A stretch of DNA of 25,667 bases from a virus. Each line of letters begins with the position of its first letter. Within the stretch, counting starts at the first letter, position 1. Below the pieces are notes generated by a model. That model was given only the letters and a program-made list of their open reading frames with translations. It was not told where the DNA came from and did no database searches. A program made the position numbers and the translations under genes. Where the stretch lies: positions 1 to 25,667 of IMG/VR virus record IMGVR_UViG_3300025151_000265; one strand, written 5' to 3'. Below, one piece after another: positions 1,024 through 25,360 of this stretch.

Positions 1024-1542
1024 ATGAGTTGGAAAAATATATTAAAACGGCAAACTAGTCTAAGGGAATTTGGCAACAGGCAGACTTCATTAGAGGAATT
1101 TGGCAACAGGCAGACTTCATTAGAGGACTTAGAAAATACAAAACCAAAGAAAGAGTTACCGTATAAACAGTTTAGAAGAACACCTAAACCTAAACCTAAA
1201 CCTAAACCTAAACCTAAACCTAAACCTAAACCGGAACCAAAATTAAGTGATGACGAACTACTTAGAAAATTATATTCTAATTTCCTTTATGATGCAGAGG
1301 ATTTTGCCGGTGCAAGGGAAGGATATTCTGATGGTAGCGACTCCCGTTTTGTAAAATCATATTATGTTATTTTAGAAAAACTCCGTAAATTAGATGTAGT
1401 TAAAGATGCAAGTAAAATAGAAAAATTGCTTGATGAATTAGAAAACCATCCTTTTATGCCATTTGAAACTATTAAATATCCTTACTTACCCGATGACTAT
1501 GAAGAAGGGGAATTGCAAGGATATTATGATAAGGTGATGTAA
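1024..1542 (+). CDS. Tagged repeat protein (MSWKNILK) with decapeptide repeats and (PK)n linker
   Basis: 172 aa. Residues 1-8 are the tag MSWKNILK. Three decapeptide repeats follow (RQTSLREFGN, RQTSLEEFGN, RQTSLEDLEN; about 9-38), then a Pro-Lys alternating linker at about 56-73, then a 100-residue acidic globular-looking domain (LSDDELLRKLYSNFLYDAED onward). The PK run is the kind of extended, basic linker that spaces a domain away from a surface. The first repeat begins directly after the tag Lys (K-RQTS); the 660-aa tagged protein at 4796 also has KRQT after its tag. The start follows AAGGAGGAATAAAGA. The stop precedes the next ATG by one base. No known family recognised. The repeats suggest recent DNA slippage. 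Confidence 0.82.
   Translation: MSWKNILKRQTSLREFGNRQTSLEEFGNRQTSLEDLENTKPKKELPYKQFRRTPKPKPKPKPKPKPKPKPEPKLSDDELLRKLYSNFLYDAEDFAGAREGYSDGSDSRFVKSYYVILEKLRKLDVVKDASKIEKLLDELENHPFMPFETIKYPYLPDDYEEGELQGYYDKVM
1066..1125 (+). repeat. Two perfect 30-bp tandem repeats plus a diverged upstream partial copy
   Basis: The 30-base unit at 1066-1095 is repeated exactly at 1096-1125. It encodes the decapeptide EFGNRQTSLE in phase. A diverged partial copy precedes it (about 1048-1065, encoding RQTSLR with different codons), and a degenerate end follows (DLEN). The perfect identity of the two central copies beside a diverged one points to a recent duplication of an older repeat. Ten codons per unit keeps frame. 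Confidence 0.9.
1183..1230 (+). repeat. Eight tandem CCTAAA hexamers encoding (Pro-Lys)8
   Basis: Positions 1183-1230 are eight uninterrupted copies of CCTAAA, read in frame as Pro-Lys, followed by a degenerate copy (CCGGAA, CCAAAA). No synonymous change occurs in the run, which is typical of replication slippage. It is likely to vary in copy number between related genomes without breaking the frame. Confidence 0.95.
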
Positions 1543-1543
1543 A

Positions 1544-1909
1544 ATGGGTTGGGAAGATGTACTAAAGGTGCTTACACCTAGAATGTTTTTAGAAAATATT
1601 CAGAACATAATAGGAGGAGAAATTACCGGTACTAGTAGTAGGGGTTCAGATAAATATACTTTACATTCTGACAAAGGAAAGATAACTGTTGCTAGAAAGG
1701 GTTCATCAGAATATAATGTTAGTTCCGGATTCTTTAACGAAAATTCTTATAATCTAACTACACTACTTCCTAGGCTTCTAGATTCTCTTAATGGGGAAAT
1801 GGAAAAAATGCCCGGAGCAGTAGTTACAAGTAGTGCGGCGCATACACCTCTCTTTAGCGAAGGCAGAATGGGAGGTCGAAGAAATGCCAAGGATGAAGAA
1901 AAAGACTAA
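1544..1909 (+). CDS. Tagged small protein (MGWEDVLK)
   Basis: 121 aa. The N terminus MGWEDVLKVLTP is the tag with Gly at position 2 and Val in the Ile position. Residues 25-65 (GGEITGTSSRGSDKYTLHS, then KGKITVARKGS) look like a small beta-rich unit, followed by a Leu-rich helix (LTTLLPRLLDSLNGEMEKM) and a basic/acidic tail. Its 3' end overlaps the following gene by 26 bases, and the downstream ribosome-binding site GGAGGT is inside its last codons. The ribosome-binding site for this gene is GATAAGGTGATG, close upstream. Family not recognised. Confidence 0.78.
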   Translation: MGWEDVLKVLTPRMFLENIQNIIGGEITGTSSRGSDKYTLHSDKGKITVARKGSSEYNVSSGFFNENSYNLTTLLPRLLDSLNGEMEKMPGAVVTSSAAHTPLFSEGRMGGRRNAKDEEKD

Positions 1910-3778: not shown

Positions 3779-3990
3779 GCGATATTAGTAAGAGATACCC
3801 GATGAAGCAAAATCGAAAGAAAAAACTAACAAGAGAAAAAGTATTTGAACGCGTTAGAGAACTAAAAGCAGGTATTAAAATGATTAAATTACTCCAACGA
3901 AAAGACCCTGCTTATCGTAATAAAGAAATAAATAAATTTCTTGATGTTTTAGAAGACTCAATTAAAGAAATGCAGGAGCAATTACAATGA
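3775..3990 (+). CDS. Small basic helical protein, untagged
   Basis: 71 aa beginning MSDISKRYPMKQNRKKKL. The ATG at 3775 overlaps the previous stop (ATGA) and is preceded by AGGAGGAATTACA; an in-frame ATG at 3736 inside the TerS gene is not supported. The product is basic at the N terminus, then helical (REKVFERVRELKAGIKMI and a second helix near the C terminus). No W tag. Its last codons (MQEQLQ) resemble those of the preceding gene (MQEELQ), because both encode the Shine-Dalgarno of the next gene. Function unknown; the size and charge would suit a DNA-binding or bridging protein. Confidence 0.75.
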   Translation: MSDISKRYPMKQNRKKKLTREKVFERVRELKAGIKMIKLLQRKDPAYRNKEINKFLDVLEDSIKEMQEQLQ

Positions 3991-4232
3991 GTTGGGAAAA
4001 TATAATAAAAGCAAAAAAATATCCGAATGTGGAGAGGATGATAGATTATCAAATTTCAAACCATTCAAAAAAACCCATGTCAAGTATTCCTAAATTAGTG
4101 AGTGAAGCAATTAAATTATTTGGAGAAGAATTGGAACAAGATATAGAAGACTCGTTTATTGATGATATTTCATATCCGGAGAACCATACGCCAAGACATA
4201 AAAAATTCAACAATTGGGTAGAAACACTTTGA
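3987..4232 (+). CDS. Tagged small protein (MSWENIIK)
   Basis: 81 aa. The tag MSWENIIK has Ile in place of the usual Leu. The remainder is a mixed helical domain (SIPKLVSEAIKLFGEELEQD) with an acidic patch and ends NNWVETL. The start overlaps the previous stop and has the recurrent upstream sequence AGGAGCAATTACA. A potential helix-breaking stretch (YPENHTPRHKK) precedes the C-terminal Trp. No known family recognised. Confidence 0.8.
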   Translation: MSWENIIKAKKYPNVERMIDYQISNHSKKPMSSIPKLVSEAIKLFGEELEQDIEDSFIDDISYPENHTPRHKKFNNWVETL

Positions 4233-4233
4233 A

Positions 4234-4478
4234 GGAGGAATTACAATGAGTTGGAAAAATATATTGAAAGAAGAATTGGTTTTAATCTATGATGATGGTT
4301 CTTCTGTTGAAGGTGTTGCCGGCACTTTAGCCACTGAAGACACTAAGGATGTAGTTGCTTTAGTATTAGATGGAAAAATTAAGAAATTGATTGGTAAAAC
4401 AATAACAATTGATGCGACAGACCAAAGTTTAGATTGATGCAGGAGTAATTACAATGAGTTGGAAAGATATTTTGAAAG
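4234..4478 (+). repeat. Recurring ribosome-binding-site-plus-tag leader (two adjacent copies; others elsewhere)
   Basis: The stretch GGAGGAATTACAATGAG reads into the tag codons at 4234-4268, and a near copy (AGGAGTAATTACAATGAG) at 4441-4478. Related copies lie at 3762-3779, 3972-3995 and 4782-4800. A sister version, AGGAGGAATAAAGAATGAG, lies at 734-752 and 1010-1028. The likeness covers ribosome-binding site, spacer and start, so tag and translation signal may move or duplicate together. The upstream genes differ, so this is not duplication of whole genes. Confidence 0.75.
4246..4437 (+). CDS. Tagged small beta-rich protein (MSWKNILK)
   Basis: 63 aa, among the shortest tagged proteins: MSWKNILK followed directly by a compact, probably beta-rich domain (ELVLIYDDGSSVEGVAG, then VVALVLDGKIKKLIGKTITI). 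With so little protein beyond the tag, the tag is about one eighth of the chain. Start preceded by GGAGGAATTACA, the cleanest copy of the recurring leader. Family not recognised. Confidence 0.8.
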   Translation: MSWKNILKEELVLIYDDGSSVEGVAGTLATEDTKDVVALVLDGKIKKLIGKTITIDATDQSLD

Positions 4479-9085: not shown

Positions 9086-9610
9086 ATGGCTGAAAAAATA
9101 ACTGCTGGTGAAATTACTTTTGAACAAATGTCAGAAGAACAAGCGGTGAAAACTTTCCAAGAAGATGGCTATTTTGAGTACAATAAAAGAAGGGTGAGGT
9201 ATGGAGATTCTTTACCACCTAATTCTATTTGGGCTACTATCCCCGCTACTATGTTTGTTGCTTTTTACAAAGGTACTCCAGTAGGAATTGTAGGTTTTTC
9301 TAGATATAAGGGAGTTTTACTAGGGGCTGGAGTTCATACTAGAAGAGAGTATAGAGGAAGAGGATTGTTAGATATTTTAATAGATAAGGCAATAAAGGAA
9401 AAGCGTTCTAGGACACTTTATATCAATATTGCTAATCCGAGAATAGCGAATAATTATAGGGCAAAGGGATTCAAAGACATGAATAAAGATGAGTTGCCGG
9501 AAGATGTTAAGCAAGAATTAGGCGATATTAGATACACTGACCAAGTTCAAAAACTACTAAGTCATTTTTCCCCTAAGTGGCAACAAGTTCTTAAAAGAAG
9601 GAGAGGTTAA
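9086..9610 (+). CDS. GNAT-family N-acetyltransferase with C-terminal W tag
   Basis: 174 aa. GNAT enzymes transfer the acetyl group of acetyl-CoA to an amine. The acetyl-CoA-binding motif A is clear: GAGVHTRREYRGRGLLDIL (residues about 80-98), with the R-x-x-G-x-G-type loop (YRGRGL) after a beta strand. The following strand and helix (TLYINIANPRIANNYRAKGF, 110-129) carry the usual Asn/Tyr and an aromatic-Gly-Phe turn. Length is normal for a single GNAT domain. The extra C terminus, SPKWQQVLKRRRG, matches W-x-x-V-L-K and mirrors the N-terminal tag of neighbours. Substrate unknown; a capsid, packaged or host protein are all possible. The start follows AGGTGAGGGC. The stop is one base from the next tagged gene. 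Confidence 0.85.
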   Translation: MAEKITAGEITFEQMSEEQAVKTFQEDGYFEYNKRRVRYGDSLPPNSIWATIPATMFVAFYKGTPVGIVGFSRYKGVLLGAGVHTRREYRGRGLLDILIDKAIKEKRSRTLYINIANPRIANNYRAKGFKDMNKDELPEDVKQELGDIRYTDQVQKLLSHFSPKWQQVLKRRRG

Positions 9611-9611: not shown

Positions 9612-9977
9612 ATGAATTGGAAAAACATATTAAAAGCAGATTGTGGGACAACAGAAAAGATTCTGTATGGCAATCAAAAGAAACTAGACAGAAACAAAAA
9701 CAATAAAATAGATTCAGAAGATTTTAAACATCTACGGGCGAATAAGTCTGAAGGTGCAGAAGAAACAATAGTTTCTACTTTGGAAAAGGAAGGAGGGGCT
9801 TCGGGTCTAGAACCACTAGAAGAAGCAACTAAGATGTCCGGAGAAGAATTAGAAGGGCTGTTGAACTCTATGGAAAATGTTGTTCAGCATAAGAGTGGAG
9901 ATTATATTCTTTTAGATGGGCTACCGCTTCCTGAAGAAGAGGAAGAAGAGGAAGAAGAGGATGAGCAAGATGAGTAA
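9612..9977 (+). CDS. Tagged EF-hand-like protein (MNWKNILK) with poly-Glu tail
   Basis: 121 aa. The tag is MNWKNILK. Residues 26-37 (DRNKNNKIDSED) fit an EF-hand Ca-binding loop: D at 1, N at 3, N at 5, Ile at 8 and D at 12, flanked by KKL and FKHL helical ends. Position 6 is Asn instead of Gly, and position 12 is Asp instead of the usual Glu. A Gly/Glu/Leu-rich segment follows, and the protein ends in a run of Glu with Asp (residues about 109-121). The strongly acidic tail could mimic DNA or bind cations. The ribosome-binding site is GGAGAGG before 9612. The last codons overlap the next gene by 8 bases. Confidence 0.8.
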   Translation: MNWKNILKADCGTTEKILYGNQKKLDRNKNNKIDSEDFKHLRANKSEGAEETIVSTLEKEGGASGLEPLEEATKMSGEELEGLLNSMENVVQHKSGDYILLDGLPLPEEEEEEEEEDEQDE

Positions 9978-10197
9978 TTGGAAAAATATTCTGAAAATGA
10001 ATCCTAGTCTAGTAGTAGACCAAATCGGAGAACATAAAGATATTTTAGCAGATATTGAAGAAACTATAAGATTATATTCAGATAATAAAATGATGGACAG
10101 AGAAGGAATTGTAAAATTGTTCGATGATTATAATGTTTCTCACCACCAAATCCATAATGCCTTAAAAGTAATTATAGAAAAGATAACGAGGTCTTGA
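9970..10197 (+). CDS. Tagged small acidic protein (MSNWKNILK)
   Basis: 75 aa. I take the ATG at 9970 (MSNWKNILKMNPS); an in-frame ATG at 9961 would add MSK and is less well placed relative to the GAAGAGG upstream. The tag has one extra residue (Asn) before Trp. The rest is acidic and helical (QIGEHKDILADIEETIRLYS, then HHQIHNALKVIIEKITRS). The gene starts inside the poly-Glu coding end of its neighbour, so a Glu-rich (GAA/GAG) tail doubles as ribosome-binding site. Family not recognised. Confidence 0.78.
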   Translation: MSNWKNILKMNPSLVVDQIGEHKDILADIEETIRLYSDNKMMDREGIVKLFDDYNVSHHQIHNALKVIIEKITRS

Positions 10198-10198: not shown

Positions 10199-10573
10199 AT
10201 GTCTTGGCAAGATATTCTTAAAGTAAAGGCTACTGCTACTCATAACAGTAAAGGTGAGAAAAAGGATTCTTGCGAATTATCTGCTGATGAATCCTATGGA
10301 ATGAAAAGTTCAGCATATAGGTCAGGAAATATTACCCAATGCAGAAAGAAAAAAGGGATTAAAAAAGCCAATGACGGATTACATCAATGGTTTAACAGAA
10401 GAGGCGGAGATGGTCAGAAAGGCTGGGTTTCCTGTCAATCATGTGAAGATGATAAGAAAGGGACAAAACCTTGTGGAAGACAAGATGCTTCTAAAGGAAC
10501 TAAACAAAGATGTAGGCCGACTTGTTCTGCATGTAAAGACTATCCAAGAAGAAAAGGGAGGAAAGGAAGATGA
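10199..10573 (+). CDS. Tagged Cys-rich basic protein resembling the DUF5872 family (MSWQDILK)
   Basis: 124 aa. The tag MSWQDILKVKATA precedes a low-complexity linker. A Cys-rich, strongly basic domain follows: GLHQWFNRRGGDGQKGWVSC (about residues 60-79), then SCEDDKKG, PCGR and QRCRPTCSACKDYPRR. The W-F-x-R-x-G-G-x-G-x-x-x-G-W-V-x-C and P-C-G-R ... C-R-P-T-x-x-x-C pattern matches my memory of DUF5872, a small domain known from viruses and some cells; this was not checked by search. The Cys set could bind zinc, and the basic tail suggests nucleic-acid binding. As I recall the domain occurs without such a tag elsewhere, which would make this a tag-plus-domain fusion. Start preceded by GAGGTCTTGAT. 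Confidence 0.8.
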   Translation: MSWQDILKVKATATHNSKGEKKDSCELSADESYGMKSSAYRSGNITQCRKKKGIKKANDGLHQWFNRRGGDGQKGWVSCQSCEDDKKGTKPCGRQDASKGTKQRCRPTCSACKDYPRRKGRKGR

Positions 10574-10977
10574 ATGATTGGCAAATCTTATTGAAGCAAT
10601 TAACTTGCCCTCCGGCAACTAAGAATCTCAAACTTAATACCAAGAATAGAGATGCCGCTATCAAAGATGAAGATATAAAATACGGTCCTTTGAATATAGA
10701 TGAACCTGCTGATTATTGGGAGAAGGTAGCGGAACATTGGGACACATCCGTTGAAGCCGCTAAGAAATCTAAATGTTCTAATTGTATTGCTTTTGATATT
10801 AGTCCAAGGATGAAAGATTGTATGCCTATCGTAGATGTAAAAGGTGGATTAGGATATTGTTGGATGCACGATTTCAAGTGTCACGAAGATAGAACCTGTT
10901 ACACTTGGGCCAAGGGTGGTCCTATTAAAGACGATAAGAAGTCTAAGAAAAATCAACTGAAGAGGGAAGAATCATGA
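10570..10977 (+). CDS. Tagged Cys-cluster protein (MNDWQILLK)
   Basis: 135 aa. The tag is MNDWQILLKQ (W-x-x-L-L-K, with an extra residue before Trp). The C-terminal half carries six Cys: CSNC at about residues 73-76, C at 88, then GYCWMHDFKCHEDRTCYTWA with three more (about 95-114), with nearby His. The spacing suggests a metal site (Zn or Fe-S). I have an impression of similar small C-x-x-C ... YC ... F-x-C-H-x-x-R-T-C-x-x-W proteins in marine viruses, but could not check it. The protein ends in a basic tail (KKSKKNQLKREE). Its start overlaps the preceding stop by four bases and is preceded by GGGAGGAAAGG. Confidence 0.78.
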   Translation: MNDWQILLKQLTCPPATKNLKLNTKNRDAAIKDEDIKYGPLNIDEPADYWEKVAEHWDTSVEAAKKSKCSNCIAFDISPRMKDCMPIVDVKGGLGYCWMHDFKCHEDRTCYTWAKGGPIKDDKKSKKNQLKREES

Positions 10978-11303
10978 GTTGGAAAGAAGTTCTAAAAATA
11001 GATGAGATAGATATTCAATCTTCTATCAACATGGCTAGAAAATACTTAGATGAAATAGAGGAATATGTTTCGTATTATTATGGTGCTGGCTACTCTCCGG
11101 ATTTTGACGATGAGGGGGAGGCTGATGCTTTTCAAGACCAAACCTACAAAGATATTGAAACCATGAATAAATTATTCAAAAATCCTACTAAAGAAAATTT
11201 AGAAAAAATAGAAACGATGTCGAATAGGTTAGCCCAAGATATTGAATTTGAACATAGCCCATTAGAAATAATTCCTTCTTTTGATATTCAGTATAGGGAG
11301 TGA
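10974..11303 (+). CDS. Tagged acidic small protein (MSWKEVLK)
   Basis: 109 aa starting MSWKEVLKIDEIDIQSS (tag with Val). The body is acidic, with Tyr-rich and Asp/Glu-rich stretches (EEYVSYYYGAGYSPDFDDEG, residues about 31-50) and two helices towards the C terminus. It overlaps the previous gene by ATGA and is preceded by GAGGGAAGA. No family recognised. Confidence 0.78.
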   Translation: MSWKEVLKIDEIDIQSSINMARKYLDEIEEYVSYYYGAGYSPDFDDEGEADAFQDQTYKDIETMNKLFKNPTKENLEKIETMSNRLAQDIEFEHSPLEIIPSFDIQYRE

Positions 11304-11307: not shown

Positions 11308-11661
11308 ATGTCTTGGCAAACTATCCTCAAAAAGAAACCTAAGAGTGCTAGGTCAAGAGCATTAGAGAGAGCCAAAAAGAAAGGACTTAAAGGATTAAAT
11401 AAGCCTCAAAGACTAAACGATAATTCCGGAAAGTCGCATCATGTAATGGCTTTTGAAGGTAAGAAAGCCAAGTACATTAAATTCGGACAAAAGGGAGTTA
11501 AGACAAATCAAACTGCTGGACAAAGAAAGGCTTTCAAATCTCGCCATGCTAAGAACATCAAGCGTGGGAAAATGTCTGCTGCATATTGGGCTAATAAAGT
11601 AAAGTGGAGTGCAAGTAAAACCAAAGAGAAGAAGAATAAGAAATGGAGGAAGGGGAGTTAG
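11308..11661 (+). CDS. Tagged highly basic protein (MSWQTILK) of a phage-associated family
   Basis: 117 aa. The ATG at 11308 (MSWQTILKKKP) follows TAGGGAGTGATAGA; an in-frame TTG at 11281 is not supported. After the tag comes a Lys/Arg-rich body with a conserved-looking core: GKSHHVMAFEGKKAKYIKFG, then QRKAFKSRHAKNIKRGKMSA and AYWANKVKW. The F-K-x-R-H-x-K-N-I-x-x-G-K-M-S-A-A-Y-W-A pattern is one I recall from small basic proteins of many phages; its role is not established to my knowledge. The composition suggests DNA binding. Fusion of the tag to such a domain fits delivery of a DNA-condensing or DNA-binding protein into the capsid. The stop abuts the next ATG. Confidence 0.82.
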   Translation: MSWQTILKKKPKSARSRALERAKKKGLKGLNKPQRLNDNSGKSHHVMAFEGKKAKYIKFGQKGVKTNQTAGQRKAFKSRHAKNIKRGKMSAAYWANKVKWSASKTKEKKNKKWRKGS

Positions 11662-11862
11662 ATGCCATTTAAGTCTTTAGAGCAAGCCTACTTCTTGTAT
11701 AATTACAAGCGAGTCGTATTTAATCAAATTGCTGGAGTATATGGCGTTCCGTTTCTTTGGCACGAATACAGAGACTTGAGAGATAGAGGTATTACTGCTA
11801 AAGATGCAGACAAGATGATTCATGACCCAAGATTAAAAAAGTGGCAAAGGGTGTTGAAATAA
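11662..11862 (+). CDS. 66-aa protein with C-terminal W tag (KWQRVLK)
   Basis: 66 aa. MPFKSLEQAYFLYNYKRVVF leads into a Gly/Val/Tyr-rich part and ends DPRLKKWQRVLK, where the last six residues are exactly W-x-x-V-L-K. Unlike most tagged genes it lacks the motif at the start. The first 50 residues (aromatic, Tyr-rich, with AGVYGVPFLWHEYRDL) look like a small helical domain. Its stop overlaps the terminase start (TAATG), which suggests translational coupling with the packaging motor. Ribosome-binding site: AAGGGGAGTT. Function unknown. Confidence 0.75.
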   Translation: MPFKSLEQAYFLYNYKRVVFNQIAGVYGVPFLWHEYRDLRDRGITAKDADKMIHDPRLKKWQRVLK

Positions 11863-16788: not shown

Positions 16789-18540
16789 GTGGTCGTTCTA
16801 AAGCAAGATAAATATTTAGAGTCGGCGCAGACCGCAAAGGAAAAGGCAGAAGAAGAATATCTTAAAACTCAAAATGCTAACTATAGAACATTTGTTCAAG
16901 CCCTAAAGATTTTAGAGAAAATGAAAAAGGATAAGACCTTTGAGGCTAGAAGTAAAAGACTGGGTAAATTGATTTCTGCTATTAGAGGGGCAGGTTCTCC
17001 CGAAGTAAAATTAGAAAAAATACTATTTAGTTTTAGAAAATTAAAAGAACGAGACTATATAGTAGCAGACATAAAAGATGCCGAAAATAAAAAGATAAGT
17101 GCAGAAGATGTTCAGTCAAGAATGAAGTCTGCCTTATTTGACGAAGAAGTAAAATCTACAGCACACGCTTCTATTTTTACAATTAATCAACCTATGGAAG
17201 AAGTACAAAAAAATAAAGCGTTAGATGTCTTAACAGAATATTTTAATCCCCCTCCTACTATAGAATACGAAGAAGTAGTTACTGAAGAGGAAAAGGTTTC
17301 TAAAATCGCAGTAATAACTCTAGATGATACAGATGTAGATAACATAACTGAATATATGAATGATGCGTTTGGGGAGAACTTGACAGACCTTACCGAACAA
17401 GACCATGAAATAAAAACCAATCTATATGAGATATTATTAGAATTATATGTTGATTCGTTTGGGGAATATCCTACCTTTTATGTTAAAAGTGGAAACATTG
17501 CTGGCTATCTCAAAAATTTAAAAAGTCAAGTTTTTAGAGAATTGCAACGCCGTTCCGGTGGAAAGAAGGATTCTTCTGAACGCACATCAAGTATGATTAT
17601 TTCTAAAGATAGTTTAGATAGAGCCTTTAATGGTATTGAAGGAGAAATACAACTACTAAATGAAAGGAAAAAGGAATTGAGTAAGCAATTAGAGAAACAT
17701 GTAGATATTGATATAGAAAAAGAAATAGTGAACTACCAAAATAAAATTGAAAACGAAATTTCAGAAATAAAACCAGAATTGAAAGAACTTAAGGAACGGT
17801 TTGATTCCGTTAAAACTAAGTTAAAATCATTAAAAGAAAAGGAAAGTTCTCTTGGGCAATTAACCGCAACAGAATATGTAGAAGGTAAAAAAGAATTGGA
17901 CCCCGAAATTAAAGAGGCTAATAAAATACTAAATATTATAATTAGAGAGGGAGACAAGGTAAAAAACAAATTAGCGATTCTAGAAAAAGCGGATTCTACT
18001 AGCATCAGAAGTACAATAGAAAGTGGTCTGATGGAGGAGCATCAGGCACAGGTAGATAACATAAAGGAACTAAACCAAAGAATAATTAGATTGAAACAGG
18101 AGATAACTTTACCTAAACCTGTAAAGAAAGAAATTAGAAAAATTATTAGAAGATTCGACCCAAGTAAGGAATTAGAGGGAGAAATGTATAGGGAATACAT
18201 AACCGCTCTTAATACATATGAGCGGATTTTAATGAGAGTAGGTAGGAAGATAGATTTGGAAATAACTCAAATGAAATCCTACATAAAGAAAAATTCTGAT
18301 GCTTTGCAGAATACTGCGGATTATTTCATAGGTTTAACTGAAAAGGAGTTTTCAGTGGAGAATCTAGATGAATTCGAAGACTTCGAAATAGTTCTAGCAA
18401 TGAATAAGCATAGTTTAACTGATTCGGATATGTCCGAATTGCAAACGGATATTATAGAAGCACTCAAACTAAGAAGAAAGGTTATCAAACTAACTGAGGT
18501 AGCAAAAGAAAAGGCGAAACAAAAGAGGGATGCAAAATGA
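16789..18540 (+). CDS. 583-aa coiled-coil protein, unknown
   Basis: GTG start (MVVLKQDKYLESAQ) with GAAGGTGG just upstream. No other start is better placed, and the previous gene ends at 16778. The protein is Lys/Glu-rich with long helical segments and a clear coiled-coil region (about residues 280-445; for example LLNERKKELSKQLEKHVDID and SEIKPELKELKERFDSVKTK). No Cys motif or W tag. It follows the portal and precedes a tagged gene. Possible roles are an internal scaffold or a tether, but no family is recognised. It overlaps the next gene by four bases (ATGA). Confidence 0.75.
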   Translation: MVVLKQDKYLESAQTAKEKAEEEYLKTQNANYRTFVQALKILEKMKKDKTFEARSKRLGKLISAIRGAGSPEVKLEKILFSFRKLKERDYIVADIKDAENKKISAEDVQSRMKSALFDEEVKSTAHASIFTINQPMEEVQKNKALDVLTEYFNPPPTIEYEEVVTEEEKVSKIAVITLDDTDVDNITEYMNDAFGENLTDLTEQDHEIKTNLYEILLELYVDSFGEYPTFYVKSGNIAGYLKNLKSQVFRELQRRSGGKKDSSERTSSMIISKDSLDRAFNGIEGEIQLLNERKKELSKQLEKHVDIDIEKEIVNYQNKIENEISEIKPELKELKERFDSVKTKLKSLKEKESSLGQLTATEYVEGKKELDPEIKEANKILNIIIREGDKVKNKLAILEKADSTSIRSTIESGLMEEHQAQVDNIKELNQRIIRLKQEITLPKPVKKEIRKIIRRFDPSKELEGEMYREYITALNTYERILMRVGRKIDLEITQMKSYIKKNSDALQNTADYFIGLTEKEFSVENLDEFEDFEIVLAMNKHSLTDSDMSELQTDIIEALKLRRKVIKLTEVAKEKAKQKRDAK

Positions 18541-18878
18541 CTTGGAATTGGTATAATGAAGATATTATTAAAGCCGAAGGAGATATTCTTTCGGCTTTGG
18601 ATAAGAAGCAAAAAAAGGCACTTAAGAAAACTCTGCAAGCCGCAGAACCAACAGAATATTTTGGACAGGATTTTACTAGATTGGGTGAGTTATTAGATAT
18701 GATGAAGGACTTGGATTTGATTAAATCTGATGAAAAATTATCTAAGAAGATGGAGACTATGGATGAGAGCAATCTAGATATATTAGCCACAGCCAGCAAA
18801 CTCCGTAAAGAGTACGAAACCCTCTACAGGCAGATTCGAAAATTAGTATATCCAAAGAAAGGAGGCGACTTAAGATGA
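18537..18878 (+). CDS. Tagged small helical protein (MTWNWYNEDIIKAE)
   Basis: 113 aa. The N terminus MTWNWYNEDIIKAEGD is a longer tag variant with DIIK in place of DILK. The remainder is a charged helical protein (ALDKKQKKALKKTLQAAEPT and further helices to the end). It starts on the previous stop (ATGA) and ends over the next start, within a block of coupled genes. The ribosome-binding site is AAAAGAGGGATGCAAA. Family not recognised. Confidence 0.75.
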   Translation: MTWNWYNEDIIKAEGDILSALDKKQKKALKKTLQAAEPTEYFGQDFTRLGELLDMMKDLDLIKSDEKLSKKMETMDESNLDILATASKLRKEYETLYRQIRKLVYPKKGGDLR

Positions 18879-19105
18879 CAGAACAAAACGAAGTATTACT
18901 CTTGCTAAAAGAATTAGTGAACCGAGTACAACAATTAGAAAGCGTAGCATACAATAAGGACAATGTTCTGATGAAATCAGGATTTGTCGTAACTAATAGC
19001 CCAACACCGTCAATGAATAATAAGATTGCATCTACCTTTAGTATGGATGATATAAGCGCAATGTCATTCGATGATATGGCTAAGATTATTCAGAAGATGG
19101 AGTGA
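18875..19105 (+). CDS. 76-aa scaffold-like protein whose C terminus matches the scaffold tail
   Basis: Begins MTEQNEVLLLLKELVNRVQQ, an amphipathic helix that could form a coiled coil. A flexible Ser/Pro/Asn segment follows, and the end is SMDDISAMSFDDMAKIIQKM-E (residues 56-76). The scaffold domain downstream ends SMDDVANMSWADLNRLAGN (23926-23979). The two tails share S-M-D-D-[IV]-x-x-M-S-[FW]-x-D-[LM]. This suggests that both contact the capsid protein by the same C-terminal helix, as known for scaffolds of several tailed phages, where a short C-terminal helix binds the coat protein. It overlaps the previous stop and is preceded by AAAGGAGGCGACTTAAG. Most likely a small accessory scaffold or head-assembly protein. 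Confidence 0.7.
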   Translation: MTEQNEVLLLLKELVNRVQQLESVAYNKDNVLMKSGFVVTNSPTPSMNNKIASTFSMDDISAMSFDDMAKIIQKME

Positions 19106-19110
19106 TTTAG

Positions 19111-19380
19111 ATGACTTGGGATTACTACGATATTAAAAAAGTAGAAATTAAAAAGGGAGATGACTACGATATGACTATGACGGTATCATGCGAGTTAGAA
19201 AAGGATGGAGAAACTATTCTTCCTGAAGATATTGGATTAAGTGAGAGAGAACTGCATTCTACTGTTCAAGATGTTTTACAGGAATTAGTTGGTAGGAAAG
19301 CCTCTTCTGCTATAGAAGATGAAGAGGGAAGCGAAATAGTAATAGATGTAGAAATCAAATCTGTTTCAGAAAATAGGTGA
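19111..19380 (+). CDS. Tagged small protein (MTWDYYDIKK), copy 1
   Basis: 89 aa. Starts MTWDYYDIKKVEIKKGDDYD, first of three consecutive proteins sharing MTWDYY[DN]IKK. The body contains two likely beta strands (MTMTVSCELEKDGETILPED), an acidic helix and a further strand near the C terminus. There is no obvious similarity to the next two proteins beyond the tag, so this looks like different domains with a common address. Ribosome-binding site TGGAGTGATTTAG. Confidence 0.8.
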   Translation: MTWDYYDIKKVEIKKGDDYDMTMTVSCELEKDGETILPEDIGLSERELHSTVQDVLQELVGRKASSAIEDEEGSEIVIDVEIKSVSENR

Positions 19381-19385
19381 GTAAA

Positions 19386-19586
19386 ATGACTTGGGATTAT
19401 TACGATATTAAGAAAAATTTTGAGTTTGTTGAAGGTCAGTTTAAAGACGAAACAGAGACTACAGATGCAGTTCTAGAGTTTAAGAAAGGGGCTATGAAGA
19501 TGTTGAAAGAGTTAAGCATAGATGCCGCCAACCTATCAAAAGCAAAGAAACTATTTGGTAAATTTTTAGATGAGGTGAAAGAATGA
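19386..19586 (+). CDS. Tagged small protein (MTWDYYDIKK), copy 2
   Basis: 66 aa. ATG 19386; an in-frame GTG at 19377 lies in the ribosome-binding site GGTGAGTAAA and is rejected. MTWDYYDIKKNFEFVEGQF continues into a charged helix (FKKGAMKMLKELSIDAANLS) and ends GKFLDEVKE. Beyond the tag it does not resemble its neighbours. It overlaps the next gene by ATGA. Confidence 0.78.
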   Translation: MTWDYYDIKKNFEFVEGQFKDETETTDAVLEFKKGAMKMLKELSIDAANLSKAKKLFGKFLDEVKE

Positions 19587-19789
19587 CTTGGGATTATTAC
19601 AACATTAAAAAATCAGAAGATAGGCCATTTAGGATTTCAAGAATAATGGGAGATGTTTGGAATACTATGCAAGTCGAATTACAAAGCCCTGCATTTGAAG
19701 ATAAGGCAAAAGAAGTAAGAAAGGCTCTGCAAGTATTGCATAGAGAATTAAAAGATGCACAAGAACGAATAGAAAAGGAGTATGAGTAA
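19583..19789 (+). CDS. Tagged small protein (MTWDYYNIKK), copy 3
   Basis: 68 aa. MTWDYYNIKKSEDRPF then a helical rest (RIMGDVWNTMQVELQSPAFE, and a charged helix of Lys/Glu/Arg at the end). Tag identical to the two upstream copies except Asn for Asp at position 7. Codons differ between the three copies (for example AAA/AAG and TAC/TAT), so they are not fresh duplicates. Ribosome-binding site GAGGTGAAAG. Family not recognised. Confidence 0.78.
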   Translation: MTWDYYNIKKSEDRPFRISRIMGDVWNTMQVELQSPAFEDKAKEVRKALQVLHRELKDAQERIEKEYE

Positions 19790-19790
19790 A

Positions 19791-20243
19791 ATGCCGGAAA
19801 GAATGACAAAAGAAGAAGCGAAAATTGAACAGGCTATTAGAGCCGCTAGAATTGCAAAGCAAACTTTACTAGAAGAAACTAGGAACAGTATGCCTTTGGT
19901 AGTAGATGAAGAAGAAGTAGATGTAGAAGATGGCATCGAAGAAAAACCTACTATTGAAGTACCTAACCAAGATAAAGAAGGCTATGGTCTTGCAGGTGTA
20001 GAGAATGAATATAAGATTAAGAAAGCAACGACCCCTACTTCATATGATGAAGTTATAGAAAGGATAGATAAAGAATTAGCAAGTGGTGATAGTCCTATTA
20101 AAGAAGTATTGTCGCTTGTAAGAAATATGGCATACACCAAAAAGAGAAACAATGAGCCATTTACTATAGACACATTCAAACAAATACTTGCAGAGGCCAA
20201 AAGGCAAGTAAATTGGATGCGATTTATGGGTATTAAGTTTTAG
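19791..20243 (+). CDS. 150-aa acidic protein, unknown, untagged
   Basis: I take ATG 19791 (MPERMTKEEAKIEQ), placed about ten bases after AGGAG. An ATG at 19782 sits too close to this site. No N-terminal tag. It contains a helix (EAKIEQAIRAARIAKQTLLE), an acidic linker (DEEEVDVEDGIEEKP), and a C-terminal helical domain starting SYDEVIERIDKELASGDSP. The end RQVNWMRFMGIKF holds a Trp followed by hydrophobic and basic residues, but it does not fit the strict W-x-x-[IVL]-L-K tag. Unknown function. The DNA ligase starts nine bases later. Confidence 0.72.
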   Translation: MPERMTKEEAKIEQAIRAARIAKQTLLEETRNSMPLVVDEEEVDVEDGIEEKPTIEVPNQDKEGYGLAGVENEYKIKKATTPTSYDEVIERIDKELASGDSPIKEVLSLVRNMAYTKKRNNEPFTIDTFKQILAEAKRQVNWMRFMGIKF

Positions 20244-20252
20244 TGATGCCTT

Positions 20253-22766
20253 ATGCCACTAACCGGCCTTCTATTTGAGAAGGAAACTGACTCTGTTTCT
20301 GATAAAATCCTCTCTCTCTTCGAAAAGACTAGAGTGGCTTACCTATCTGCTAAGAGTGATTCTAAAACCTATGGCTCTAGATGGAGAAAAACAGTAGAAG
20401 ACCTAAGAGATGAATACGATAATTTAGATTACTTAGGTGGACAACTAAAACAATACTTAGCAGAAGACATCTTACAATCTAAGGATGCAATGAATCCTGA
20501 AACTCCTACTGCTGAAAAAGTCTATAATGCAATTAAAATGCTACGCTTCGAATCAGACGAAGTGCAAGACCCATTTGCAAAACGCTTCAAAGGAAATGTT
20601 TTGGAAACATTAATGGAAGATAGCGGGGCTATGATTAAGTTTATTCATTATGCTTTACGAAGCGATGATGAGGTTTTACCCGATGAATTATATTCCATAA
20701 AAGATATAGATGCAGATGACATCACTATTGGTCTAAAAGGATTAGACTTAGACCCTAAAGATATTTCATTATATATTACAGAACATTATGGAGATGGAAA
20801 GGATTCTAAGAAAATAGAATCTAGAGTTAAAAATGGTCTTTCTATACTAAAACTATTCTTCCTATCTAAAAATACAGAAGAAGATTGGAATAGACTAGTA
20901 GGTGTTGAATTAAAGAAAGCGGAGAAATCCATAGAAGAAAAGGCTCAAGTAAATTTCATAATACCTAATAAGCCAATGTATAGGATATTTGAAATAGAGG
21001 ACATTAACGAACTACAAGGATTTAGCGGTGAATGGGTTGTTCAAGAAAAATATGACGGTATGAGAATACAGATTCATAAAATTGATAACAAGATAAAAAT
21101 ATATTCTTACAATGAAAAGGACATTACAGACAAATGTAAGAAACAAGTAGAAGTAATGAAAAAGAAACAGTTCGGCGACTGTATATTGGATGCTGAATTA
21201 ATTCTATTTGATGGTGATGAAGCACTACATAGGGCAGATACTATTTCCCATGTATTCAAAAACCAATACCAAGATGCAGAATTAAAGGCTCATGTGTTCG
21301 ATATTATGAGACACGAAGAAAGAAACATGGCTTCAGAAGAATTGTCCGAAAGGATAAATATTTTATTCAATAATTATTCTATGCACTCTGATGACCATTT
21401 ACAATTCCCTTCTAAAAAAGATACTAGAATTGCAGACAATCTAAAAGACATTGAAGAATATAGTGAGGCGATTATGGAAATGCCTACTGCTGAAGGTGTG
21501 GTAATAAAGGATAGTACTTCTACATATTACATAGGTACTAAGAAAAACCCTAAGTGGATTAAATGGAAGAAGTTTGTAGATTTAGATTTAATCGTTCTAG
21601 ATAAAAAGAAAACTAAATCTAATATGTTCTCCTACACTTTAGGTGCAGGGCCAGCAGAAGGCGAAGGAAAACATATCAAAGTATTAGATAAAATACAATA
21701 TATGAATGTAGGGAAGGCTAACAATACAAAGTTAGATGTAGATGTTGGAGATATTCTTAGAGTTAAAATAGATGAGGTGAAGTTCGATGGAACTAAATAT
21801 ACTATCTATGGTTCTAATGCAATAGAAATACCTGAAGTAGAATACCCTGAAAAGATAATAACATTAGAAATGTTATCTAAAGAAACTAAGAAGAGTTTAA
21901 AGTTTAAGGCTACAGCATTAGAAAAGGGAGTTTTAATTACAGACTATGTTCATGGAGAAGCAATACTAAAATCTATGGATGGTTTTACTTTGTATGAATT
22001 TGAAAAAGATAATTTAATGTCTAAACATGCTATGATGAATTTAGAATCTTGGAAGTCTGATGCAGAAAATATAATGAAAACCAAACAAAGCGAATTAACC
22101 GTGAGCGTATTTCAGCACTTAAAAACAAGAGGGCCGAAAACCGTAAAGGACTTACATAACTTCTTAGTTAAGGAAGTTGGCAGACTATATGATAGTGTAT
22201 TAGATAGCCAAATGTCTAAGTTAAAAGAGTGGTTCGATAGTAGAGATGGTATAACTTACAACAATAAAGAAAAGAAGTTTATGGCTGATTCAGATAAAAT
22301 TATGTTAAGTGAAAAGGAATACAAAACTCCTTCTGAATATAGAGAAGGAGAGTTCAAAGTATATTCTAGAAAAGATGACGACTTAACTTTTGCAATTAAA
22401 TTATCTGATGAAACAATGTATTGGACTATAGATATTAATTCCGATGATGATATATTTAACCTATTTGGGAAGGCTGGAAAATTTCCTGCGGAAGTAGCAA
22501 CCACAATTTCTTCTGATTCTAAGGTGATAGATGAAGGAGACATTACTTTAGGAGTACAGAGAGATGGCTACCATGAGTATTTCATAAATGGAAATAAGTT
22601 TGAGACTAAAGTACACTTTAGAGTAATACCGGTAGATGATAAAGAAAAGTGGTTAGTGTGGACCGGTTATAAGCAGGAACCGGCAGACATAGCAGGGGAT
22701 GAGGGAGTTTGGAATATTAATAATGATAAATATGTAAAGTTGCTAATAAATCCGGAAAAACCCTAA
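20253..22766 (+). CDS. ATP-dependent DNA ligase with long C-terminal extension
   Basis: 837 aa; seals nicks using ATP through a lysyl-AMP. Motif I is EKYDGM (K266 is the AMP-bearing Lys), followed by R271. ILDAEL is at 311-316, AHVFDIM at 346-352, EGVVIKD at 414-420 and KWIKWKK at 434-440, in the normal order of a ligase core. An OB-like segment follows up to about residue 530. The N-terminal 240 residues are helical and not recognised as a standard DNA-binding domain. The C-terminal 300 residues are unusual: a probable winged helix (VFQHLKTRGPKTVKDLHNFL, 619-638) and a beta-rich domain (about 695-837), remotely like the phosphoesterase-type domains attached to some ligases, though I cannot confirm this. 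No W tag. It lies between head genes instead of replication genes. Confidence 0.9.
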   Translation: MPLTGLLFEKETDSVSDKILSLFEKTRVAYLSAKSDSKTYGSRWRKTVEDLRDEYDNLDYLGGQLKQYLAEDILQSKDAMNPETPTAEKVYNAIKMLRFESDEVQDPFAKRFKGNVLETLMEDSGAMIKFIHYALRSDDEVLPDELYSIKDIDADDITIGLKGLDLDPKDISLYITEHYGDGKDSKKIESRVKNGLSILKLFFLSKNTEEDWNRLVGVELKKAEKSIEEKAQVNFIIPNKPMYRIFEIEDINELQGFSGEWVVQEKYDGMRIQIHKIDNKIKIYSYNEKDITDKCKKQVEVMKKKQFGDCILDAELILFDGDEALHRADTISHVFKNQYQDAELKAHVFDIMRHEERNMASEELSERINILFNNYSMHSDDHLQFPSKKDTRIADNLKDIEEYSEAIMEMPTAEGVVIKDSTSTYYIGTKKNPKWIKWKKFVDLDLIVLDKKKTKSNMFSYTLGAGPAEGEGKHIKVLDKIQYMNVGKANNTKLDVDVGDILRVKIDEVKFDGTKYTIYGSNAIEIPEVEYPEKIITLEMLSKETKKSLKFKATALEKGVLITDYVHGEAILKSMDGFTLYEFEKDNLMSKHAMMNLESWKSDAENIMKTKQSELTVSVFQHLKTRGPKTVKDLHNFLVKEVGRLYDSVLDSQMSKLKEWFDSRDGITYNNKEKKFMADSDKIMLSEKEYKTPSEYREGEFKVYSRKDDDLTFAIKLSDETMYWTIDINSDDDIFNLFGKAGKFPAEVATTISSDSKVIDEGDITLGVQRDGYHEYFINGNKFETKVHFRVIPVDDKEKWLVWTGYKQEPADIAGDEGVWNINNDKYVKLLINPEKP

Positions 22767-22767
22767 A

Positions 22768-22778
22768 CTATTAAATAC
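22768..22778 (+). promoter_or_regulatory. Possible TATA-like promoter element before the protease gene
   Basis: AACTATTAAATACC at about 22767-22780 lies in the 40-base gap between the ligase stop and the protease ATG, one of the larger gaps in the window. TATTAAATA resembles an archaeal TATA box. A start site about 25 bases downstream would be near 22800, close to the ATG at 22807. The protease/scaffold and capsid genes may need more expression than the upstream genes. Low certainty, since AT-rich DNA makes such matches common. Confidence 0.3.
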
Positions 22779-22806
22779 CTAATTGAAAAACGAAGAGTTG
22801 AGGAAA

Positions 22807-23982
22807 ATGGGAACTGCCGTTATGCAAACTAATGATTTCCAAATTCTCAAAAGCCAAGACGACTTGATGATTGGGGGATATGCAAGCATAGAAGTTGTCG
22901 ATAAGCAAAATGATTTAATCACACTCAAAGCACTAGAAGATGCAGTAGAAAAATACATGGAGAATGCAAAATTTAGAAATGTAATGACAAACCATTCAAA
23001 TGTCCAAGTAGGAGAAGTAGTAAAATCATATAGAGATAAAAATGGAAAAATATGGAAAACTGAAGTAGATGATGTGGGATTTTTTGTAGTAATAAAATTA
23101 AGAGATGACATCGAAAAAGCAAAAGAAATAAACAGAGGAATTCGCAAAGGAACATTAAGGTCTTTTAGTATAGGGGGACAAGCACTTCAGAAAGTTAAGA
23201 AGCAAAATTCGGAATTAGGCGAATACAGCGAAATTAGCAAACTAGAGTTACATGAAGTCACCATATGCGAAAAAGGAATTAATCCTGAAGCGAAATTCGA
23301 TATTTTAAAACAAGAAAAAGAGGGAACAAAAATGACCGATAAACTAGAAAAAGCACTTGAGGAACTTGACACTCTATTAGAGGAAGTCAATACTCTAAGG
23401 AAAGAAGAAGAGGAGAAATCCCCTGCGGCTGCCGCAGACTTAGAAATGAATGCGGCGGCTATGGACGAAGAATTGATGGATGCTGAAGTAGAGACTTCAG
23501 AATACATGGATGAAGAAACAAAAGCAGTTACTACACTAGATGCAGAAACCGGAGAACCGGCAAACCGCTTAGTAGTTAGTGGCGGAAGTCCTGTTGGAGA
23601 CAAGCAAGCAAAGGTCGTTAAGGCTTTTGACAATGGTGAAATTACTTCACTAAACCTTTCTCCTGATGTAATCGAGAAAGCATACTCGGAATACAAGTCA
23701 GAACAACTAGAAAAGATTGCTCTAAATAACTTAGAAAAGACTTTTGCAAACCGCTTTAAGTCTGAAGTTTCTGAAAGAAACAATATTATTTCAAAGGCTA
23801 ACTATGATGCAAAGTCTGAAGTTAGCGCACTAAAGGAAGAATTGGCAGACCTACGAAAGTCATTCTCTACCGGAAAATCCGAAATTCTCAAAGCACAGCA
23901 GACTGAATCTGTTAAACTACCGTCTATGGACGATGTAGCAAATATGTCATGGGCCGACTTAAACAGGCTCGCTGGAAATTGA
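22807..23982 (+). CDS. Prohead protease fused to scaffold domain
   Basis: 391 aa from ATG 22807 (MGTAVMQTNDFQILK); a TTG at 22783 and ATG at 22822 are alternatives. Residues about 14-165 form an HK97/U35-type prohead protease, which matures the capsid by trimming structural proteins. Catalytic residues inferred by order and spacing: His in VMTNHSNVQ (H63), Ser in RSFSIGG (S121) and Glu in LHEVTI (E150), near the HK97 positions. Scaffold from about residue 176 to the end: charged helical stretch (MTDKLEKALEELDTLLEEVN), an Ala-rich acidic linker and a C-terminal helix. It ends SMDDVANMSWADLNRLAGN. ILK tripeptides stand near the N terminus (FQILKS), at the protease/scaffold junction (FDILKQ) and before the tail (SEILKA), and may be autoprocessing sites. 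Confidence 0.88.
   Translation: MGTAVMQTNDFQILKSQDDLMIGGYASIEVVDKQNDLITLKALEDAVEKYMENAKFRNVMTNHSNVQVGEVVKSYRDKNGKIWKTEVDDVGFFVVIKLRDDIEKAKEINRGIRKGTLRSFSIGGQALQKVKKQNSELGEYSEISKLELHEVTICEKGINPEAKFDILKQEKEGTKMTDKLEKALEELDTLLEEVNTLRKEEEEKSPAAAADLEMNAAAMDEELMDAEVETSEYMDEETKAVTTLDAETGEPANRLVVSGGSPVGDKQAKVVKAFDNGEITSLNLSPDVIEKAYSEYKSEQLEKIALNNLEKTFANRFKSEVSERNNIISKANYDAKSEVSALKEELADLRKSFSTGKSEILKAQQTESVKLPSMDDVANMSWADLNRLAGN
23332..23982 (+). CDS. Possible separate scaffold protein from an internal start
   Basis: An in-frame ATG at 23332 (MTDKLEKALEELDTLLEE) inside the protease gene follows AAAGAGGGAACAAAA, with GAGG 8 bases before it: as good a ribosome-binding site as those of most genes here. 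Translation from it would give a 216-aa scaffold lacking the protease domain. Nested scaffold genes within protease genes are known in tailed phages (lambda C and Nu3). It would supply many scaffold copies and few proteases. Not proven; the ATG may be chance. Confidence 0.5.
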   Translation: MTDKLEKALEELDTLLEEVNTLRKEEEEKSPAAAADLEMNAAAMDEELMDAEVETSEYMDEETKAVTTLDAETGEPANRLVVSGGSPVGDKQAKVVKAFDNGEITSLNLSPDVIEKAYSEYKSEQLEKIALNNLEKTFANRFKSEVSERNNIISKANYDAKSEVSALKEELADLRKSFSTGKSEILKAQQTESVKLPSMDDVANMSWADLNRLAGN

Positions 23983-23995: not shown

Positions 23996-25360
23996 ATGTC
24001 AGGATATATTAACACAATTAGAGACTTAGAAGCACAGACCTACGGAATCTCCGGCGCATTTGGCGGCAACGATATTCTAAAGCAAGCGGGAGTAGTACAG
24101 GGATTACATACTGCTCACGATATTGCCGACGCAGCAGCATCGGGAGTTACTGGAATTAGCACATCAACCGGACTTTACAATGTTCTTTACGGACAGAAAG
24201 TTTGGTCAATGCTAAACCGTGAAGTAAATGCGCTTTCAATGATTTCAAAGCGTCCTTACTCTTCTTCGGGATGGAGAGTTCTAAAGAGCCGACCTTTCGG
24301 TGGCTCCGGAAACACACTAGCAGAAGCACTTGTAAATGATTCAGATACCGCAGACTCAGGAATTGGAGATGATGCTCCTTCTGCTGATTTAATTGGTGGC
24401 GTTCCAGAAAACGCTGGACTTTCTACTGCGGCAGATGGTCTAGGTTCTATGGCTCCTACCTACGCTCAACTATTTATGAGTCCTAAGACTGTTGCACATC
24501 AATTCGATTTCTCTGAATTGGCAATGGAAATGGCAAAGATTGACGATGGAATTGGAGATATTAGAGCGCAAATGCGTGAAGATATGGGAATTGCTCATGC
24601 AGAAGCACAAAACATGATGCTTCTTATGCCTCTAGAACATTATGGTGAATCAACAAACCAATCTACAGGCCGTCTAGAAAACATTGAGAGAAACTATACT
24701 TCTCTAAACAAGATTGTTACAAGTCGTGCAGAACTTTTGGCTATTGATGGTGGAGTTATTGCTACCGATACTACAAGTGCATCAAACAACTTGGGTAAGA
24801 TTTACGGAGATGAAAGATTTACTGCGGCTTCTTTCCTAGATTCTGAAGTAGACTTTGGAAGCGGATATGCTAGTGGAGATGTTCGTTCACTAACATTAAC
24901 TCTACTTAACAACATGATTCGTAACCTACGAATTGCTGGCGGTTCTCCAAAAGTAATTCTAACAGGATATGACACAATTCAGTCTATTGCAGACCTACTA
25001 CAAAGCCAAGAAAGATTCATGGACAGAAAGGAAATCGTTCCTACTGTAAATGGTGTTCGTGGAGTTAAGGGAGCAGAAGTTGGATTTAGAGTTGCAACAT
25101 ACTACGACATCCCGCTAATTCCTTGTAAGGATATGGCTTCCACAGGAAACGCAACTAGCAAACTAAGCGATTTGCTTTTCCTTGATACTGACCACATTTG
25201 GTTGGCTGTTATGAAACCTACACAATACTTCGAAGATGGTATTTCCAATGGAAACCCATTCGGTGTTGGTCGTCTAGGAAACCAAGCACTTTACCGCACA
25301 ATTGGTGAAGTTGGCTGTTCATTCTTTAAGGGACAAGGTAAGATTACCAACATTCAGTGA
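23996..25360 (+). CDS. Major capsid protein (probable HK97 fold)
   Basis: 454 aa. Identified by position directly after protease/scaffold and by composition and features: high Gly/Ala/Ser, a segment of short N-terminal arm, and typical coat-protein stretches (SPKTVAHQFDFSELAMEMAK, VRSLTLTLLNNMIRNLRIAG and a C-terminal EVGCSFFKGQGKITNIQ). No sequence family was searched. Codons look more uniform than in upstream genes, as expected for high expression. A strong ribosome-binding site, GAGGGGG, lies eight bases before ATG 23996. GGNDILKQAGVV at residues 23-34 holds the DILK core of the tag; cleavage after K29 would remove a short N-terminal arm. This position is unusually close to the start, so a full delta scaffold domain is absent, in line with the separate scaffold. 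Confidence 0.85.
   Translation: MSGYINTIRDLEAQTYGISGAFGGNDILKQAGVVQGLHTAHDIADAAASGVTGISTSTGLYNVLYGQKVWSMLNREVNALSMISKRPYSSSGWRVLKSRPFGGSGNTLAEALVNDSDTADSGIGDDAPSADLIGGVPENAGLSTAADGLGSMAPTYAQLFMSPKTVAHQFDFSELAMEMAKIDDGIGDIRAQMREDMGIAHAEAQNMMLLMPLEHYGESTNQSTGRLENIERNYTSLNKIVTSRAELLAIDGGVIATDTTSASNNLGKIYGDERFTAASFLDSEVDFGSGYASGDVRSLTLTLLNNMIRNLRIAGGSPKVILTGYDTIQSIADLLQSQERFMDRKEIVPTVNGVRGVKGAEVGFRVATYYDIPLIPCKDMASTGNATSKLSDLLFLDTDHIWLAVMKPTQYFEDGISNGNPFGVGRLGNQALYRTIGEVGCSFFKGQGKITNIQ

Follow-up and report, generated by a model that had tools for sequence, protein, structure and literature searches.

A candidate capsid-targeting tag resembling the scaffold tail in a tailed archaeal virus

The working of capsid targeting sequences is understood in outline for bacteriophage T4, in which the capsid targeting sequence (CTS) has its targeting residues at positions 4 and 7 and its processing residues at positions 8 and 10, and the two can be separated by mutation (PMC9026906). 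The scaffold of 80alpha and the 72-amino-acid (aa) protein CpmB of SaPI1 share a C-terminus (RIIK, a helix and hook) and bind the same site on the coat protein (PMC5644958). The C-terminus of the herpesvirus scaffold (UL26/UL26.5) also binds the coat protein, and is removed at the M site (PMC12474303). In phage P1, the N-terminal 30 residues of DarB send a reporter into the capsid (PMC9024508). The current study concerns IMG/VR virus record IMGVR_UViG_3300025151_000265, of which positions 1 to 25,667 (25,667 nucleotides; hereafter the window) were analysed. The window, part of the genome of a tailed archaeal virus, encodes a prohead protease-scaffold fusion and a separate 76-aa protein with similar C-terminal tails, and a short peptide resembling these tails, here called the tag, stands at the N-terminus of many further proteins and at the C-terminus of others. 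We consider it somewhat more probable than not that the tag is a T4-like capsid-targeting signal which copies a shell-binding tail of the scaffold and combines docking with release at an ILK site.

Tails of the scaffold and the 76-aa protein

Comparisons were made with ~160 related loci, some of them overlapping, and with seven near-complete genomes (G001–G007). Motif counts rest on regular expressions and simple open reading frame (ORF) calls, and the contigs used may be incomplete. To avoid circularity, the search for homologues of the 76-aa protein used its N-terminal part alone. The two proteins and their tails are as follows.

22783–23982, plus strand: prohead protease-scaffold fusion, 399 aa as called, assigned by Peptidase_S78 (Pfam E=2.2e-9), PHROG head maturation protease and alignments
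23893–23979, plus strand: C-terminal tail of the scaffold, aa 371–399, core MSWADLNR at 23944–23967
18875–19105, plus strand: 76-aa protein, consisting of a helix (3–26), a linker and a tail; 126 homologues in the collected loci
19040–19102, plus strand: tail of the 76-aa protein, aa 56–76, core MSFDDMAK at 19061–19084

Relatives of the fusion begin MRKM, and the true start may lie a few codons downstream of the one called. An earlier note on this DNA had described both ORFs and both tails, and they are found where it placed them, except that the 76-aa protein ends ...SMDDISAMSFDDMAKIIQKME (...IIQKME), two residues beyond the end given there.

In a local alignment (BLOSUM62), the two tails score 41, a value reached by none of 20,000 shuffles. 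When 7,681 23-residue stretches from proteins of the window are ordered by their match to the scaffold tail, the C-terminus of the 76-aa protein comes directly after the tail itself, and the next ranks are taken by four N-terminal tags with scores of 27–28 (MSWQDILK, MTWKDEIK and MSWKDILK among them). The script that made this comparison had no knowledge of N-terminal tags. The resemblance of the tails to the tags, which the earlier note had pointed out, is therefore an unplanned outcome here; it far exceeds chance and is seen repeatedly in the virus group.

In nearly all relatives both proteins end in M-[DSEN]-[WF]-x-[DE]-[ILM]-x-[KR], and ~100 related viruses have the shared core at the two C-termini. 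The pair reads MSWADLNR and MSFDDMAK in the window's clade, and mostly MDWSDIHK and MDWSEIHK elsewhere. Counted by locus, scaffold tails have WSDIHK (83), WADLNR (19), WNDIHK (16) or WADIHK (14), and the tails of the 76-aa protein have WSDIHK (42), WSEIHK (29), WKDIHK (20) or FDDMAK (7). Past K370, M388 and W390 alone are invariant in a 60-sequence alignment of the scaffold, and M63 is invariant in the tail of the 76-aa protein in an alignment of its homologues.

A profile built solely from N-terminal tags found in other genomes, and excluding position 1, gives the scaffold tail ranks of 2, 5, 7, 10 and 3 among 24,000–26,000 internal positions in G003–G007, which have IHK-type tails, and 35, 46 and 13 in the window's clade (G001, G002 and the window). 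These ranks bear on an alternative explanation, in which the two tails are homologous to each other and the tags, as generic N-capped amphipathic helices, merely came to resemble them by convergence. A helix capping box, to which positions -1 and +2 do conform, would by itself make S/T/D/N and D/E the preferred residues, and the tags do not track the clade difference between IHK and LNR tails. However, the tryptophan, which a capping box alone does not demand, is at the same place, and even with position 1 excluded the tails rank 2–10 of ~25,000 in five genomes. Convergence is improbable on this evidence.

In the structural model of the scaffold, a confidently predicted long helix (294–372) is followed by a break and by short helices at 382–386 and 390–396 (pLDDT ~70–77). 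The model of the 76-aa protein has a helix at 3–26, a linker, and helices at 57–61 and 65–75 (tail pLDDT 62–67). As modelled, the scaffold has the layout of scaffolds with a coat-binding C-terminus, that is, a long helix, two short tail helices and an ILK ahead of the tail. A fold search with the protease-scaffold model, which is poor outside the long helix, returned nothing significant, and sequence searches of solved structures with the scaffold and coat profiles gave no matches. No homologue of the 76-aa protein was found in the phage collection, and no sequence match in Pfam or PHROGs; it is a candidate mini-scaffold. In locus L135 (184,733 bases, handle G008), two copies of its homologue lie ~91 kb apart, which suggests a tandemly doubled assembly.

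Tags at protein N- and C-termini

In the window, N-terminal tags are present at the following positions.

748–771, plus strand: MSWQDILK
1024–1047, plus strand: MSWKNILK
1544–1567, plus strand: MGWEDVLK
3987–4010, plus strand: MSWENIIK
4246–4269, plus strand: MSWKNILK
4454–4477, plus strand: MSWKDILK
9612–9635, plus strand: MNWKNILK
9970–9996, plus strand: MSNWKNILK, with its start within ORF 9916–10197
10199–10222, plus strand: MSWQDILK; Flavobacterium phage homologue without tag
10570–10596, plus strand: MNDWQILLK, on a HiPIP-like protein; phage homologues without tag
10974–10997, plus strand: MSWKEVLK
11308–11331, plus strand: MSWQTILK; Roseobacter phage homologue without tag
18537–18572, plus strand: long-spaced tag MTWNWYNEDIIK, with W and the IIK site further apart
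19111–19140, plus strand: long-spaced tag MTWDYYDIKK, repeated at 19386 and, as MTWDYYNIKK, at 19583

The strict form of the tag, M-x(1-2)-W-x-x-[IVLM][LIVF][KR], begins 7–17 genes, every one on the coat-protein strand, in each of the seven near-complete genomes. No strict N-terminal tag was found on their other strand, and inside proteins the motif occurs 0–2 times per genome. When proteins are clustered, which lessens but does not eliminate relatedness among the tags counted, a W-motif tag is present in 157/489 clusters on the coat-protein strand vs 2/384 on the other.

Three tagged proteins of the window (the HiPIP-like protein at 10570 and those at 10199 and 11308) have homologues in bacterial phages. 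In each case the homology starts past the tag, and the phage homologues examined have different N-terminal starts, without the tag. One and the same mature protein is preceded by varied spellings of the tag across viruses: MSWQDILK, MWFDILK and NWKEVLK all stand ahead of KATxTHNSKGE. From such comparisons, the tags appear to be add-ons. Pfam gave no confident function for the tagged proteins, GNATs with C-terminal tags excepted.

It might be argued that translation-start context or the calling of ORFs produced the tags artificially, as they sit at gene starts and several of the ORFs have alternative starts. This can hardly be credited, given that the opposite strand of the same genomes has none, that C-termini, that of the scaffold among them, also carry the motif, and that the same mature protein follows different spellings in different viruses. 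In the stretch 19111–19789, three successive small genes have MTWDYY[DN]IKK in common and little else, so that mainly the tag appears to be conserved between them.

At protein ends, two copies are present in the window.

9572–9607, plus strand: C-terminal tag PKWQQVLKRRRG, ending the GNAT acetyltransferase encoded at 9086–9610
11836–11859, plus strand: C-terminal tag KKWQRVLK, ending the 66-aa protein encoded at 11662–11862

In relatives, the tag profile identifies further copies at protein ends, including LKWDEVLRx(stop), KSWQEVIRx(stop) and PEWKKILR... On the coat strand, the motif occurs 10 times in the last 16 residues of proteins against ~1.7 expected, which is 5.8x the internal rate; on the other strand the rate is not raised. 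The presence of the motif at the ends of other proteins as well suggests that the address would be usable at either end, as in the scaffold and the 76-aa protein. The earlier note had noticed the likeness of tags to tails, which holds, but had overlooked both these C-terminal copies and the probable protease site ILK, which the tails lack.

GNAT acetyltransferases with a C-terminal tag are found in three viruses (9086–9610 in the window, L194:2930–3445 and L196:2152–2769), which suggests that they are packaged enzymes. A fourth GNAT (L189:9374–10579) has KGWWNIIK internally, past the GNAT-like part.

Candidate cleavage sites and a proposed two-part tag

The ILK that closes most N-terminal tags has counterparts in the head proteins, which are listed here with the major capsid protein and a candidate internal start.

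22843–22851, plus strand: ILK (K23) near the protease N-terminus, [ILVMF][LIMV]K in 121/122 distinct homologues; candidate self-cleavage site
23302–23310, plus strand: ILK (K176) at the protease/scaffold junction, 122/122 homologues; candidate release site
23320–23334, plus strand: internal ATG (M184) preceded by the Shine-Dalgarno GAGGG, where a free scaffold (aa 184–399) may start
23884–23892, plus strand: ILK (K370) just ahead of the scaffold tail, 101/122 homologues; K370 invariant in 60 sequences; candidate site for freeing the scaffold from its 29-aa tail
18968–18976, plus strand: LMK (K34) in the 76-aa protein, 93/96 homologues; candidate cleavage site
23996–25360, plus strand: major capsid protein (PHROG major head protein, E=1.2e-19)
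24074–24082, plus strand: ILK closing the candidate propeptide of the major capsid protein (aa 1–29, ending NDILK), [IVL]LK at K29 in 110/110 homologues

Since ILK is shared by the tags and by the conserved sites of the coat propeptide, the protease, the junction and the region ahead of the tail, it is probably the site of the prohead protease. The simplest reading of the tag is then a docking half, W-x-[DE]-I, in common with the tails, joined to a cleavage half, ILK; the tagged proteins would be packaged and cut after ILK. In the long-spaced class (MTWDYYDIKK, MTWDYYGEGEDFILK) the tryptophan is distant from the putative cut site, and because the two can be spaced apart the halves would be separable.

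The residue before K distinguishes tags from tails: it is L, I or V in 155/157 N-terminal tags, and H, N or G in all scaffold tails. The last residue itself is K in 152 N-terminal tags and R in 5. Among C-terminal tags it is R in 8 vs K in 3 once three doubtful hits are dropped (9 vs 5 with all), and with these dropped the contrast between the two kinds of tag has p = 1.5e-8. Such a bias is as expected if only N-terminal tags need cutting after K.

These data also bear on the idea that the likeness reflects no more than recognition by one prohead protease, with tags and tails both substrates of the form x-[DE]-[IL]-x-[KR] and no docking. Both do finish with a hydrophobic residue, one further residue and K/R, and the scaffold tail belongs to the protease polypeptide itself. 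However, no W stands upstream in the common forms of the [IL]LK sites of coat protein, protease and scaffold, whereas the tails lack the L/I before K that these sites share. In addition, W is spaced away from ILK in the MTWDYY class, and tags at the extreme C-terminus would leave nothing to release. A role as protease substrate alone is therefore improbable.

In the fusion, Peptidase_S78 spans aa 26–183, so that an N-terminal protease is joined to a C-terminal scaffold. A Shine-Dalgarno of ≥4 nt precedes the ATG at the junction in 72/75 distinct loci, vs 263/1308 (20%) of other internal ATGs in the same ORFs, and it is kept at the DNA level while the encoded amino acids differ. The conservation of this Shine-Dalgarno and ATG past the junction suggests that a free scaffold is probably also made, from a nested scaffold-only gene.

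Conservation is high at the start of the coat protein (23996–24082; M[ST]GYINTIRDLE / MSYVNTIADLE), where M, an aromatic residue, N and I give a faint resemblance to the tag. This start may be one more copy of the docking motif, but it is not claimed as a tag. Between the scaffold-related genes, 20253–22766 encodes an 837-aa protein with an ATP-dependent DNA ligase domain (aa 255–439) and long uncharacterised flanks.

Proposed docking and known systems

In the mechanism proposed here, one short capped helix, [S/T/D/N]-W-x-[D/E]-I-x-K, would close both the scaffold and the 76-aa protein and dock them on one shared partner within the head as it grows. This partner would most likely be the major capsid protein, at its inner face. 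At least a dozen cargo proteins per genome, bearing copies of the helix that are usually N-terminal and sometimes C-terminal, would be taken into the head together with the scaffold. N-terminal tags combine the docking half with an ILK site, and once the head has assembled the prohead protease would cut after ILK in the tags, in the coat propeptide, at its own N-terminus, at the junction and ahead of the tail, thereby freeing the cargo and dismantling the scaffold. The docking helix of the scaffold tail would itself stay uncut, because the L before K is replaced by H or N, and the site ~20 residues upstream would be cut instead.

That tail and tag share one receptor is a supported inference; that this receptor is the coat protein is suggested by analogy with the herpesvirus scaffold and with SaPI1 CpmB and 80alpha. 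Alternatively, the shared helix could bind another component of the core, such as the coiled coil of the scaffold, the 76-aa protein or the protease domain, and cargo would then be recruited to the core. The tails of the scaffold and the 76-aa protein could be self-association helices, and the T4 CTS has affinity for the core and not the shell (PMC9026906), which weighs against docking on the coat protein and keeps this alternative alive. On the other side, a tail that follows a long helix and a cleavage-like site is in the order of the herpesvirus scaffold, whose C-terminus binds the coat protein, and the shared C-terminal motif of 80alpha and SaPI1 also binds the coat protein. Recruitment by a core component is rather unlikely, but it is the main contender.

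Several further observations count against docking of tag and tail on one coat-protein site. Confidence in the structural models is low overall, and the protease part is poorly predicted. The ILK-type site ahead of the tail is absent or altered in 21/122 homologues. The tail of the 76-aa protein in the window's clade, in which F replaces W, is not recovered by the tag profile, and its only ties to the tag are its resemblance to the scaffold tail and those of its homologues that have W. Within a genome, the tails of the scaffold and the 76-aa protein have 6.11/8 matching positions vs 5.65/8 for permuted pairs (0/5000), yet when ancestry is reduced by comparing sister pairs the tests are weak (p = 0.03–0.04 at 2/8 positions). 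As these nearest-relative contrasts are weak, the likeness of the two tails within a genome reflects mostly shared ancestry. Finally, the tags remain ...ILK while the tails vary by clade (LNR/MAK vs IHK).

The earlier note had inferred that the tag mimics a coat-binding helix of the scaffold, with the inner face of the capsid protein as receptor; it had proposed a check for co-variation of the two across relatives, and had named tails diverging beside fixed tags as evidence against the idea. The likeness is indeed recurrent and far above chance. Strict co-variation of tails and tags is not supported: the tags ignore the clade changes of the tails and keep ILK when these switch between LNR/MAK and IHK. 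The coupling of the scaffold and 76-aa tails is mostly shared ancestry. The tails have therefore diverged in part beside constant tags, yet the W-x-[DE]-[IL] core is kept in scaffold tails despite the clade differences.

A more general possibility, which we put forward tentatively and rate a little short of even, is that the scaffold tail is a general address, so that any protein with a copy at either end would dock on the coat protein in place of the scaffold and then be freed by the protease. If so, a single motif would link the assembly of the shell to the loading and release of cargo, for over a dozen proteins per virus. In ~100 genomes, one motif can be read in the cargo tag, the scaffold tail and the mini-scaffold tail, so that the question of the receptor is directly testable. 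The motif would also predict the packaged proteome from sequence alone in these uncultured archaeal viruses, which are marine and form a very common group. The predicted set includes acetyltransferases, which may reach the host at infection, and the tag, being short and portable, could serve to direct proteins into virus shells.

The coat protein and portal of the window have 23–31% identity to those of haloarchaeal tailed viruses of the HVTV-1/HCTV group, and the close relatives of the window are viral contigs of up to 84–97 kb. Magroviruses, of marine group II archaea, are near the haloviruses and have genomes of ~90 kb (PMC10160649), and the window would fit this group (Magrovirales; Druskaviridae-related, marine). 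HVTV-1 and methanogen-associated viruses were considered as carriers of the same system and rejected, as their head-gene regions (L162–L164; these regions alone) contain neither tags nor tails. Locus L161 (NZMJ01000024.1), filed under a Maricaulis metagenome-assembled genome (MAG), encodes the coat protein and protease of this virus group and one tagged protein; the filing is probably a binning error.

The literature searched consisted of open-licence papers only; none was found to report such tags from archaeal viruses, or a T4 CTS likeness to the scaffold's own tail, and cargo tagging of this kind was not seen in the cited herpesvirus paper (PMC12474303). In their working, the tags would resemble both capsid targeting sequences and the C-termini that scaffolds share with other proteins. 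As in the T4 CTS of IPI-III and Alt, a short N-terminal peptide is found on several different proteins, with the targeting residues first and the cleavage residues last (PMC9026906), and the processing of T4 Alt at both ends recalls the N- and C-terminal positions of the tag in these viruses. A shared N-terminal peptide is present here in 157 non-redundant clusters, and the [IL]LK that ends it also ends conserved sites of the coat protein, protease and scaffold. In contrast to T4, there are many more tagged proteins per genome, and the viruses are archaeal. T4 gp21 cuts after L/I-x-E, a motif that was looked for and does not occur at the conserved sites here, which are [IL]LK and end in K.

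Like 80alpha and SaPI1, the window combines a scaffold with a separate small helical protein (72 aa there, 76 aa here) under one C-terminal motif. Both proteins come from one virus here, however, and the motif is also on many other proteins; its form is M-x-W-x-[DE]-I-H-K (WSDIHK / WADLNR / FDDMAK), and RIIK was sought and not found in it. As neither the T4 cleavage motif nor RIIK is present, the tags are not filed under the T4 CTS or under 80alpha/CpmB.

Similarities to the herpesvirus protease-scaffold include the fusion of protease and scaffold, a candidate release site at the junction, a candidate site before a short tail (25 aa in HSV-1, 29 here) and, as in UL26/UL26.5, a candidate nested start for the scaffold alone. 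The protease here is of the S78 prohead family, unlike that of herpesviruses, and the sites are candidates from sequence. The N-termini of the P1 Dar proteins have no consensus (PMC9024508), whereas here a single consensus extends across 157 clusters.

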